From the NCBI GenBank assembly GCA_019115045.1, contig DXEI01000076.1, positions 1-51,519 of the forward strand: a DNA stretch of 51,519 nucleotides, read 5' to 3'. Below the pieces are notes generated by a model. It was given only the letters and a program-made list of their open reading frames with translations. It made no database searches and was not told the origin of the DNA. Source of the DNA: Candidatus Gemmiger excrementipullorum (lineage in GTDB: Bacteria > Bacillota > Clostridia > Oscillospirales > Ruminococcaceae). The translations under genes and the position numbers were made by a program. Shown piece after piece: positions 16,569 to 30,390 of this stretch (position 1 is the stretch's first letter; every line of letters begins with the position of its first letter).

Positions 16569-16909
16569 TACTTTCGCCTCCTACTAAAATTTGTGCCTTA
16601 GGCGAGCCGATAAATCACACACGTTTCCGGGTGTTTCACTGCTTCGCATGACAAAATCCGGTGAACCGCTGTGCGCAGTTCTCCCGGAAAGAATCATCAC
16701 AAAGTAGCTGAACATTGGTCCGTGCCGCAGAATGCAGCGCCGTACATATCCCTTTGTTTCCGTAATTCTTTCGCCCGGTTCTAAGATCGGACATACTCCG
16801 CGGAAAAACCCGCCTGCCCTAAGGCGTAGCGGCGGCAACCTCCCGCATCAACGCATATCGCGGCTTGCGCAGAACGCTTGCAGCAATCTGCCCAAGCCTT
16901 TCGCAGCCG
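16569..16909 (-). ncRNA. Long 5' leader of the S10 operon (candidate autoregulatory RNA)
   Basis: About 340 bases separate the likely transcription start (near 16909) from rpsJ. No real gene is visible; an 84-codon open frame at 16584-16838 has no start signal and a composition unlike its neighbours. The sequence is less GC-rich than the genes and has short inverted repeats. S10 operon leaders are often targets of ribosomal-protein feedback, so a regulatory RNA is plausible but not shown. Confidence 0.4.
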
Positions 16910-28214: not shown

Positions 28215-28757
28215 TCACCCGCGCAGTTTGCGGCGGGCGCGTGCCAATGCGTTGGCCACGCCTTTGGGCGTGATGCCAAGCTGCTGCGCCGTGCGCGCGG
28301 CGGGCTGCCCATGCAGGCTGGCCACCAGGGCGCGGCGCTCCAGCGGGGAAAGTTCGGTCTGCATGCGGCCCAGCGTGGCGGCCCAGCGCTCCCCCGCGAT
28401 GGCCAGTTCCTCCGGCCCGGGCTGGGGGATGTTTTCGGCGTCCGGCAGCGGCACGCTGAAATTGAGCGGCGCGTGCTTTTTGCGCAGCGCGGCGCGGCGG
28501 GCGTCCTGCTGGGCGTGGCGGATACACGCCGCGGCATAGGATGCAAACGGCGCGCCGGCCGCCGGGCGGTAGCTGCGCACGGCCTGGAACAGGCCGATCA
28601 GCCCCTCCTGCACGGCGTCCTCAAAGTCGAGGCCGGGTGCCTGGCAGGCGGCCGCCCCTTTGCGGATGGCCGGCATCAACCGGGCGATCAGCGCGGCAAG
28701 CGCCGTTTCGTCCCCGCGCTGTGCGCGAACCAGCATATCGTCATCGATGTTCTGCAT
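28215..28757 (-). CDS. SigH-like RNA polymerase sigma-70 family factor
   Basis: 180 residues from the ATG at 28757, chosen by GGTGGAGAAGATCGC; the 46 codons upstream are not part of it. Region 2 is visible as DDDMLVRAQRGDETALAALI and LDFEDAVQEGLIGLFQAVRS, and region 4 as ELSPLERRALVASLHGQPAA followed by a helix-turn-helix, TAQQLGITPKGVANALARAR. The acidic DFEDAVQEG pattern resembles SigH of Bacilli and Clostridia, which act in competence and sporulation; the regulon here is unknown. Confidence 0.88.
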   Translation of the reverse strand: MQNIDDDMLVRAQRGDETALAALIARLMPAIRKGAAACQAPGLDFEDAVQEGLIGLFQAVRSYRPAAGAPFASYAAACIRHAQQDARRAALRKKHAPLNFSVPLPDAENIPQPGPEELAIAGERWAATLGRMQTELSPLERRALVASLHGQPAARTAQQLGITPKGVANALARARRKLRG

Positions 28758-28791
28758 GCGATCTTCTCCACCGGCAGATACGAACACCTTT

Positions 28792-28820
28792 ATAATACCC
28801 GTACGGGCGCGGTTTGTCAA
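28792..28820 (-). promoter_or_regulatory. Promoter of the sigma factor gene
   Basis: TTGACA (28820-28815), 17-bp spacer, TATTAT (28797-28792) on the minus strand, 35 bases before the ATG. A consensus-like housekeeping promoter. Confidence 0.85.
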
Positions 28821-28877
28821 CCTGTTTTTGGGCAATTTGCTGCATGGCGCCGGCGCGAATTTTGCGGCGGCGGGGGC

Positions 28878-28906
28878 TTGTATTCCCGCCGGCAACCTGT
28901 TATACT
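28878..28906 (+). promoter_or_regulatory. Promoter of the Mn riboswitch transcript
   Basis: TTGTAT (28878-28883), 17-bp spacer, TATACT (28901-28906) on the plus strand. Transcription would start near 28913, a few bases before the riboswitch P1 stem. Confidence 0.85.
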
Positions 28907-28916
28907 GGGCAGGAAA

Positions 28917-29024
28917 GGCAAAAGGGAGTAAGCGGCAGGGCCGGCCGGGGCGCGGGGCCTGCGTTTGGCTTCGTCACCACGGGCAGTCCGCCCCGGGCCA
29001 CACCCAAGCACTGAGACTTTTGCC
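28917..29024 (+). promoter_or_regulatory. yybP-ykoY manganese riboswitch aptamer
   Basis: P1 is formed by GGCAAAAG (28917-28924) and CTTTTGCC (29017-29024). The conserved elements of the class are in order: GGGAGTA right after P1 (28924-28930), TTCGTCACC (28970-28978), CCGGGCC (28994-29000) and CACTGAGACTTTT (29009-29021). Two internal arms lie between. Known members of this class bind Mn2+ at the L1-L3 contact and switch genes on. The match is by motif and order, without a covariance-model search. Confidence 0.9.
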
Positions 29025-29057
29025 GCGGCCCGCCCGGCTGCGGTAAAAGCCTTTTTT
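29017..29057 (+). terminator. Riboswitch-controlled terminator
   Basis: CTTTTGCCGC (29017-29026) pairs with GCGGTAAAAG (29040-29049, one G-U pair), and six T residues follow (29052-29057). The 5' arm is the same strand as the 3' half of the riboswitch P1 stem, so aptamer and terminator cannot form together. Metal binding would free transcription. Confidence 0.9.
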
Positions 29058-29106
29058 ATTGCCGCTTTGCCCCCCTGCACCCAATTTGTAAGGAGGAACC
29101 CCTGTT

Positions 29107-30240
29107 ATGGATGTTTTGCAAACGTTTGCCGGGCTGTTTGCCAACTTTGGCAACCTGACCTGGCAGATGGTCGTCATGTGGGCCATCGGCGGCCTGCTGG
29201 TCTACCTGGGCATCGTCAAAAAGATGGAGCCCAGCCTGCTGCTGCCGATGGGCTTTGGCGCCATCCTCGTCAACCTGCCGATGTCGGGCGCCATCACCCA
29301 GGGCGAGACCGAAGGCCCCATCACTGCGCTGTTTGAGGCGGGCATGTCCAACGAGCTGTTTCCGCTTTTGCTGTTCATCGGCATCGGCGCGATGATCGAC
29401 TTTGGCCCGCTGCTGGAAAAACCGTGGCTGATGCTGTTTGGCGCGGCGGCGCAGTTTGGCATCTTCTTCACGCTGGCGGTCGCCGGGCTGTTCTTTGACC
29501 TGCCCGACGCTGCGTCCATCGCCATCATCGGCGCGGCCGACGGCCCCACGGCCATCTTTGTGGCCAACACGCTGGGCAGCAAGTACCTGGGCGCCATCAT
29601 GGTGGCCGCGTACAGCTACATGGCGCTGGTGCCCATTGTGCAGCCGCCGGTCATCCGCCTGTGCACGACCAAAAAAGAGCGTATGATCCGCATGCCCTAC
29701 CGCAAGGGCAACGTGACCCAGACCACCAAGATCCTGTTCCCCATCGTGGTCACGGTGCTGGCCGGCCTGGTGGCCCCCGCCAGCGTGGCGCTGGTCGGCT
29801 TTTTGATGTTCGGCAACCTGATCCGCGAGTGCGGCGTGCTGAACTCGCTTTCCGAGACGGCGCAGAACGTGCTGGCCAACCTCATCACCATCGTGCTGGG
29901 CCTGACGGTGGCCGGGCAGATGACGGCCGACAAGTTCGTCAAGCCCGACACGCTGCTGATTTTGGCGCTGGGCCTGGTAGCCTTTGTGTTTGACACGGCC
30001 GGCGGCGTGCTGTTTGCCAAGCTGCTGAACCTCTTCCTGCCCGAGGGCAAAAAGCTCAACCCGATGATCGGCGCGGCCGGCATCTCGGCGTTCCCGATGA
30101 GCGGGCGCGTCGTCAACCAGATGGGCCTGGCCGAGGACAACCAGAACTTCCTGCTGATGTACTCCATCAGCGTCAACGTTTCGGGCCAGATCGCCTCGGT
30201 CATTGCCGGCGGTTTGATCCTGACCCTGATGGGCATGTAA
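29107..30240 (+). CDS. Sodium-pumping decarboxylase beta-subunit-like membrane protein (OadB/GcdB family)
   Basis: 377 residues, nine to eleven membrane segments. Family members form the Na+ channel of biotin-dependent decarboxylases such as oxaloacetate and glutaconyl-CoA decarboxylase. Conserved parts are IIGAADGPTAIFVANTLGSK (containing the Asp known to bind Na+ in OadB), YSYMALVPIVQPPVIR, and GAAGISAFPMSGRVVNQMG with the conserved Ser/Arg. A GTAAGGAGG site precedes the ATG. There is no alpha (carboxyltransferase) gene or biotin carrier nearby; only a gamma-like small protein follows. It is controlled by a manganese riboswitch, unusual for the family, so its job may differ from a classical decarboxylase pump. 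Confidence 0.93.
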   Translation: MDVLQTFAGLFANFGNLTWQMVVMWAIGGLLVYLGIVKKMEPSLLLPMGFGAILVNLPMSGAITQGETEGPITALFEAGMSNELFPLLLFIGIGAMIDFGPLLEKPWLMLFGAAAQFGIFFTLAVAGLFFDLPDAASIAIIGAADGPTAIFVANTLGSKYLGAIMVAAYSYMALVPIVQPPVIRLCTTKKERMIRMPYRKGNVTQTTKILFPIVVTVLAGLVAPASVALVGFLMFGNLIRECGVLNSLSETAQNVLANLITIVLGLTVAGQMTADKFVKPDTLLILALGLVAFVFDTAGGVLFAKLLNLFLPEGKKLNPMIGAAGISAFPMSGRVVNQMGLAEDNQNFLLMYSISVNVSGQIASVIAGGLILTLMGM

Positions 30241-30252
30241 GGAGGGTTTTGT

Positions 30253-30390
30253 ATGAACATTGCATCGCTTGCTTCGACGCTGCCCATGATGCTCGTCGGC
30301 ATGCTGGGGATCTTTTTGGTCATCGGCGTCATCATCCTGGCGGTCTGCCTGCTCAACCGGCTGACCGCGAAAAAGGACGACAAAGAATAA
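30253..30390 (+). CDS. Small OadG-like gamma subunit
   Basis: 45 residues: a single membrane helix (PMMLVGMLGIFLVIGVIILA at residues 11-30) and a charged tail, KKDDKE. Gamma subunits of Na+ pumping decarboxylases have the same layout, but often a longer tail with a metal-binding C-terminus that is absent here. GGAGGGTTTTGT precedes the ATG. It starts 12 bases after the beta-like gene, so the two are one operon. Confidence 0.85.
   Translation: MNIASLASTLPMMLVGMLGIFLVIGVIILAVCLLNRLTAKKDDKE

Follow-up and report, generated by a model that had tools for sequence, protein, structure and literature searches.

A probable manganese riboswitch of the yybP-ykoY class before an oxaloacetate decarboxylase beta-like gene pair, and its possible part in metal export

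Here we ask why a leader with the landmarks of a manganese riboswitch should stand before two genes related to membrane subunits of sodium-pumping decarboxylases. The locus lies in a stretch of 51,519 nucleotides from Candidatus Gemmiger excrementipullorum, of the family Ruminococcaceae (contig DXEI01000076.1 of assembly GCA_019115045.1; the whole stretch is called the window), and consists of a leader, an oadB-like gene and a small gene resembling oadG (Table 1). The account that we favour, with a probability of roughly 0.55, is that an Mn2+ ON-switch controls a beta/gamma-like pair that takes part in exporting Mn2+ or some comparable ion. Its parts differ in strength. That the leader belongs to the yybP-ykoY Mn2+ riboswitch class we regard as almost certain; Mn2+ is probably its ligand, by analogy with the class; and we lean towards participation of the pair in divalent cation export.

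The leader and its riboswitch class

An earlier note, made from the letters of the window alone, had listed P1, GGGAGTA, CGTCA, CCGGGC, CACTGAGAC and a terminator sharing a strand of P1 as landmarks of the class, and all of them were found in the claimed order. The conserved loop L1 (GGGAGUA / AGAC), whose GGGAGTA and AGAC strands are invariant among 20 aligned leaders of non-OadB genes, is closed by P1 and P1.2; the first two pairs of P1.2 are preserved via two-sided changes from the most frequent pairs (A-U for G-C and G-C for C-G), the pair closing L1 being A-U instead of G-C. Between P3 and P3.1 lies L3 (UCACCAC) with its candidate metal-sensing adenosine, and this loop contains an N-C-A motif, as do the loops printed in PMC6754395, UCAAUUC for L. 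lactis and ACAUACU for X. oryzae. Inspection by eye gave no clear P4 of the four-way junction in the window leader; one mgtA member of the class is described with a three-way junction (PMC9495176). From the position of the promoter, the transcript is predicted to start a few bases 5' of P1.

Recognition of the leader was examined with R1, a model with P1, P1.2 and P2 built from 20 aligned leaders of other genes (16 mntP, 2 Ca/Na exchangers, 1 UPF0016 and 1 P-type ATPase, with zero OadB leaders) that were picked by motif plus P1 pairing or by a match to the Rfam model RF00080. Two of the four P2 pairs are altered on both sides in this training set, in 9 sequences each. Over both strands of the window R1 gave a single match at E <= 10, the leader itself (21.4 bits, E 0.0017), so that a model trained on leaders of established targets recognises it. 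Dozens of loci add comparative support, and the class assignment made in the earlier note holds.

Comparison was extended to 55 leaders (33 from the family, 22 from named contigs and that of the window, less L050, in which the anchor is absent). P1.2 paired in 163 of 165 cells versus 128.8 +/- 2.9 in shuffles of the 3' letters, and P1 in 303 of 385 versus 251.6 +/- 5.3, under a control that ignores relatedness. A script found a terminator overlapping the 3' strand of P1 in 52 of the 55; of the three leaders that it missed, two (L055, L075) seem on inspection to have one. An L3 between P3 and P3.1 with the candidate metal-sensing A fits 43 of 55 leaders but also 314 of 1100 shuffles, and is weak taken alone. 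The predicted secondary structure and switch layout are supported by these comparisons of sequence. Single-sequence folding was dropped as evidence, the minimum free energy of the window leader being uninformative (z -0.47 against shuffles, not unusual). The overlap of terminator and P1 is an ON-switch arrangement, like that of the antitermination model in PMC6754395, and the polarity of the leader is presumably ON: on binding Mn2+, L1 and L3 would dock, P1 would be held, the terminator would be blocked and the beta/gamma' messenger (gamma' being the small gamma-like partner) would be made.

The search with RF00080, which the earlier note had proposed as a check, gave an answer opposed to the assignment. 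By cmscan there was no match in 28770-29130 even at E <= 10, hence no score above the cut-off of the model, and 0 of 16 related OadB-type leaders matched at E <= 0.5. Over 148 genomes of the family the model had 17 matches in 16 genomes at E <= 0.1; 12 of these precede, by eye, genes for mntP, UPF0016, P-type ATPases or Ca/Na exchangers, have a GGGAGTA...AGAC core and score 14-35 bits, and the remaining five are chance-like. Its own cut-off was exceeded in none of the 148 genomes, mntP leaders included, and the mntP leader of the window genome itself gave a 29-nt partial match of 13.6 bits. Since RF00080 scores leaders before established targets too low as well, its miss is not decisive and the check was set aside as underpowered; the failure points to a shortcoming of the model and not to a property of the class. 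The model overlooks most Mn-type leaders of the family, R1 having 136 matches at E <= 0.01, a figure that counts its 20 training leaders, versus the 17 of RF00080. It reaches those 12 leaders but neither that of the window nor the 16 other OadB-type ones, so the OadB subtype is more distant than the 12 from the curated family. Matches of the window leader to other Rfam families (tfoR, mir-4888, DnaX and Thermales-rpoB, 13-20 bits) were far under their cut-offs.

Table 1. Features of the leader and the gene pair, by position in the window
Feature	Position	Strand	Details and basis
Sigma-70-type promoter	28878..28906	+	TTGTAT - 17 nt - TATACT; -35 at 28878-28883, 17-nt spacer, -10 at 28901-28906; from sequence
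Aptamer, yybP-ykoY (Mn2+) class, OadB subtype	28917..29024	+	R1 match 28916-29025; P1 pairing
P1	28917-28923/29018-29024	+	7/7 pairs
L1	28924..28930 (5' strand), 29013-29017 (3' strand)	+	GGGAGTA; GAGAC
P1.2	28931..28934, partner strand 29009-29012	+	A-U, G-C, C.A mismatch, G-C
P2 hairpin	28935..28962	+	GCAGG/CCTGC; from sequence
P3 region	28967..28999	+	
P3 helix	28970-28973/28994-28997	+	By script; by eye extendable to 28967 and 28999 with one bulge
L3	28974-28980	+	TCACCAC; candidate metal-sensing A at 28976
P3.1	28981-28984/28990-28993	+	
Intrinsic terminator	29017..29057	+	Stem 29017-29049, T-run 29052-29057 (T6); 3' strand in common with P1
oadB-like gene (377 aa), beta subunit of branch A	29107..30240	+	PF03977 480.4 bits (cut-off 31.6), TIGR01109 406.6 bits
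OadG-related small transporter subunit, 45 aa	30253..30390	+	One hydrophobic stretch

Two further features of the window were observed, a divergent open reading frame (ORF) for a sigma-70-family factor (regions 2 and 4) directly 5' of the leader at 28215-28895 on the minus strand, and a ribosomal protein leader of the S10-Clostridia type (RF03136, 49.3 bits) at 16771-16859, also on the minus strand.

Distribution of the switch and the proteins that it precedes

The first gene of the pair belongs to the oxaloacetate decarboxylase (OAD) beta family, as had been proposed (Table 1), and in a FastTree phylogeny the window-like OadB proteins (150 rows, here branch A, with beta-A its members) were separated from the 20 rows of canonical OadB at a local support of 100. 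R1 matched upstream of 34 of the 70 branch-A loci of the family, that of the window included, with one match per locus. On named contigs 77 of 80 loci were scanned (the three omitted, L157, L198 and L224, have 143-206 nt of upstream sequence; L196 and L204, at least, are by their lengths probably the same contigs as family loci), and of 29 matches 24 lie directly upstream of oadB, one 446 nt upstream (L193) and two before a gene pair ending in oadB (L189, L192), while two belong to other genes (L182, L197). Neither the 20 canonical OadB loci nor that of S. equi gave a match at E <= 5. Near switch-less orthologues, in 39 sources that include the 36 family loci of branch A without the switch, no other Rfam riboswitch rose above its cut-off.

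The gene company of this RNA was followed genome-wide, with stricter filters than in the locus-wise search. The 136 R1 matches come from 92 of the 148 genomes; at least 54 lie within 700 nt before MntP (146 MntP places among the matches listed), 27 lie 44-224 nt before branch-A oadB, and 55 were assigned to neither. Forty of these 55 sites were fetched, and among the other 15 four had been seen otherwise (two exchangers, one UPF0016, one ATPase). By eye the fetched sites precede 18 P-type ATPases, three Na/Ca exchangers, three TetR-like genes, one Na/Pi symporter and another oadB, the other 14 being ambiguous, at contig ends or before other genes such as a response regulator (L270) and a tRNA-guanine-transglycosylase-like ORF (L290); Pfam agreed on ten chosen targets (five P-type ATPases, three Na/Ca exchangers, one Na/Pi symporter, one TetR). 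Branch-A oadB is thus among the three commonest identifiable targets of this RNA in the family. The MntP gene of the window genome has its own leader of this kind (R1 67.8 bits by construction, since it is a member of the training set). A role of branch-A beta as substitute for MntP was rejected, MntP being present in 135 of 148 genomes, that of the window included.

Some of these targets deserve mention for themselves. The TetR-like genes (L257, L258 and L262, one of them TetR by Pfam) follow directly after strong R1 matches of 67-75 bits, and Na/Pi symporters with a PhoU domain lie downstream of R1 leaders at L192 (68-165), where oadB-A comes next, and at L291. At L019 a fluoride riboswitch (RF01734, 38.9 bits) stands at 2783-2872 on the plus strand, shortly 3' of the oadB-A pair.

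The gamma-like nature ascribed to the small partner was borne out by NF040909 ('OadG-related small transporter subunit', 26.0 bits, just above the cut-off of 25), though the OAD_gamma score is under its cut-off (16.8 of 27 bits). A partner ORF of 40-64 aa was found by script at 61 of the 70 family loci; canonical loci have a gamma of 120-129 aa before beta in at least 7 of 20 ORF lists. Neither the short partners in general nor the 45-aa product in the window have room for StOAD gamma residues 61-84, the part that holds alpha, and StOAD requires this gamma tail for holding alpha (PMC7274780). At L062 and L065 the N-terminal part of the small ORF after oadB-A repeats the hairpin motif of beta, GIIGGADGPTAIFVTG. 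In the citrate operon of S. equi a 114-aa protein before BCCP (L144, 4084-4428) apparently has two copies of a motif resembling the OadG tail, as if gamma were split into a transmembrane part and a tail part (by eye; no Pfam match).

Metal export or decarboxylation

The evidence on function leans to metal export, through the company of branch-A oadB among the targets of the RNA, its pairing with a pump resembling Ca-ATPases in one assembly, and one genome in which OadA was not found. In the assembly concerned (Halothermothrix sp., L189) an R1 site is followed by an 888-aa P-type ATPase and, 18 nt on, by beta-A; the ATPase matches best with the PMR1-type Ca model, under the cut-off (783.2 of 798.3 bits), and with 708.5 bits exceeds the 703.4-bit cut-off of the SERCA-type Ca model. 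PMR1 transports Mn2+ as well. A near relative (L170) has the end of an ATPase at the same place on a contig too short to show the switch, and L192 has a Na/Pi symporter where L189 has the ATPase. The genome in question (G048, 96% complete) has a switch-bearing beta-A as its single OadB match overall; no PYC_OADA was found there, a result that includes no search for other carboxyltransferases and leaves room for genome incompleteness, and its Biotin_lipoyl matches resemble AccB and GcvH by their neighbours.

On the export account the beta-A/gamma' pair would form an OAD beta-gamma-like membrane complex without the alpha-binding tail, helping to remove Mn2+ or a similar divalent cation alongside the MntP of the same genome. 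The Na+ ligands are kept, and the polar residues of the branch, E134, D353 and Q416, may adapt the ion path. Candidate sources of energy are exchange with Na+ or H+, or decarboxylation of carboxybiotin with partners encoded elsewhere.

Several observations weigh against this account. The survey of genomes with stand-alone oadB/oadG genes suggested in the earlier note found, in favour of the account, the switch at 34 of 70 family loci and 24-27 of 77 named ones, but the other 36 family loci are without an R1 match. Switch presence on the tree (60 rows with, 87 without, L193 among these, and 3 not scored) needs 26 changes, the switch having thus been gained or lost many times in branch A. One review (2024) labels Mn riboswitches OFF switches (PMC11477304), contrary to the antitermination model, and another (2020) anticipates that variants of yybP exist for divalent ions besides Mn2+ (PMC7266159). 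The gene rows of other bacteria add to these points. In S. equi the branch-A beta and small subunit stand together with BCCP, OadA and citrate lyase, a locus that L175, L182 and L207 resemble; decarboxylase operons with switch-less beta-A genes are those of S. equi, an Enterococcaceae metagenome-assembled genome, Floricoccus and Streptococcus sp.; L218 reads alpha, small gamma, BCCP, beta-A, gamma and canonical beta, and at L194, L163, L169 and L200 beta-A lies in or beside related mixtures of alpha, BCCP and canonical beta. In S. equi and at these eight numbered loci no R1 match precedes oadB. Judged from such rows, beta-A can belong to a decarboxylase. Possible partners exist in the window genome, whose contig C40 carries one OadA and one BCCP beside a carboxyl transferase. 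The two-gene unit of the window contains neither alpha nor BCCP, which says little because canonical OadB of the family is often apart from alpha too. Branch A also retains the Na+-binding residues and E40: D203, S382 and N412 are kept in the window beta and in nearly all of the branch, and in StOAD these four positions serve Na+ binding and decarboxylation (PMC7274780). E134, D353 and Q416 (StOAD numbering) occur in every branch-A row or are missing from two at most, gaps aside, where canonical OadB has G/Q/S, G/S and V. As marks of metal export they were weakened, since decarboxylase-linked members have them too, and they are to be read as marks of the branch, not of the switch.

One rival explanation is an ordinary Na+-pumping decarboxylase module with alpha and BCCP borrowed from elsewhere and with Mn2+ merely setting its level, either because the Na+ gradient drives Na+/metal exchangers or because the carboxyltransferase partner uses Mn2+. 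We regard this explanation as somewhat unlikely. The conserved Na+ ligands with E40, the genes on C40 and the OAD operons agree with it, as do the Na/Ca exchangers targeted by the same RNA and a PYC_OADA match in 31 of the 34 switch-bearing family genomes, those without it being G048, G066 and, by inference, G130. What speaks against it is the shortness of gamma' relative to the tail needed in StOAD (PMC7274780), the failure to find OadA in G048, and residue R304, kept in 6 of 60 switch-bearing members and 13 of 83 others versus four of the seven with alpha in the fetched stretch, all four of which are lactic-acid-type citrate operons. These objections are softened in two ways: R304A is a moderate defect in StOAD and beta-A of the S304 type stands beside alpha in L218, L194 and L200, and gamma could be split, its tail being apparently a separate protein in S. 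equi.

That the RNA is a yybP-type variant sensing another ion, which the pair serves, seems to us improbable. Such variants are expected (PMC7266159), the OadB subtype is outside the reach of RF00080, a Na/Pi symporter is among the targets of R1, and L3 loops like UCAAUAC and ACAGCAC differ from the X. oryzae loop; on the other hand the OadB-type loops resemble that of L. lactis (PMC6754395), the window L3 has its candidate metal-sensing A (a fit that is weak in the wider set, as said), and most of the other targets that were identified are of kinds that Mn switches control.

A wider reading, speculative and in our judgement unlikely, takes branch A altogether as divalent-metal-translocating, exporting Mn2+ where the riboswitch controls it and acting as a decarboxylation-driven metal pump where it shares alpha and BCCP. 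Canonical beta, which pairs with Na+-citrate carriers, would then expel the Na+ of those carriers, and branch A of lactic acid bacteria would expel the metal imported with citrate by CitMHS carriers. In E. faecalis the citrate operon has a carrier of the CitMHS type, an H+/metal-citrate symporter, and loss of OadB delayed citrate use but did not abolish it (PMC3198936, PMC6193673); S. equi carries a CitMHS gene. Such company would be compatible with a metal-moving beta.

Very improbable is a window copy that has decayed or resembles the class by chance, for which its R1 score (the lowest of the 34 family matches), the C.A mismatch in P1.2, the unremarkable folding energy and the RF00080 miss could be cited, against a complete P1, P1.2 pairs preserved via double changes, intact terminator, promoter and position, and the only R1 match in 51.5 kb.

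Should the export account be true, proteins annotated (in S. equi) as 'sodium ion-translocating decarboxylase subunit beta' and 'OadG-related small transporter subunit' would belong to metal homeostasis, many stand-alone beta/gamma' pairs would gain a testable role, and a CitS/NhaP-like elevator fold would join Mn2+ export, raising the question whether decarboxylation may power the transport of a divalent ion.

Comparison with known systems

The riboswitch class is known, and OAD beta as its target family was not found in the searchable literature: the open literature searched, which excludes the target tables of the 2015 primary papers, gave no report of the class on OAD genes. With the yybP-ykoY family of RF00080 the window leader shares P1, L1, P2, P3 with an L3 holding N-C-A, and a terminator competing with P1 (PMC6754395); it differs in being unrecognised by that model, in the lack of a clear P4, in the A-U closure of L1 and in its OAD beta target. 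The Na+-I riboswitch (DUF1646 motif) is likewise an ion riboswitch with an ON terminator, occasionally on OAD genes (PMC9337991), but is absent among the Rfam matches of the window leader at E <= 10. SSRC10 of S. pyogenes (RF02617) resembles five of the 16 OadB-type leaders (L030, L014, L021, L024 and L010; 28-34 bits, cut-off 56) and precedes a putative calcium transporter gene, whereas it was reported as a small RNA candidate from the complementary strand, which misfits a leader unless strand naming differs (PMC3675131); SSRC10 may be no small RNA but a leader of the Mn type.

The citrate-operon OAD of Enterococcus and Streptococcus shares the branch-A beta (S. equi, Streptococcus sp., the Enterococcaceae genome and Floricoccus) and, in S. 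equi, also the small OadG-related subunit. Unlike the window locus it is a decarboxylase operon in which R304 is kept and no R1 leader precedes oadB. StOAD OadB (6iva/6iww), finally, is a homologue of the window beta (321 bits) with D203, S382, N412 and E40 in common, and is set apart from it by the alpha and BCCP genes that the window unit lacks, by S in place of R304 and G in place of R258 in the window protein, by the 45-aa partner, and by E134, D353, Q416 and C299, which are specific to the branch of the window protein.

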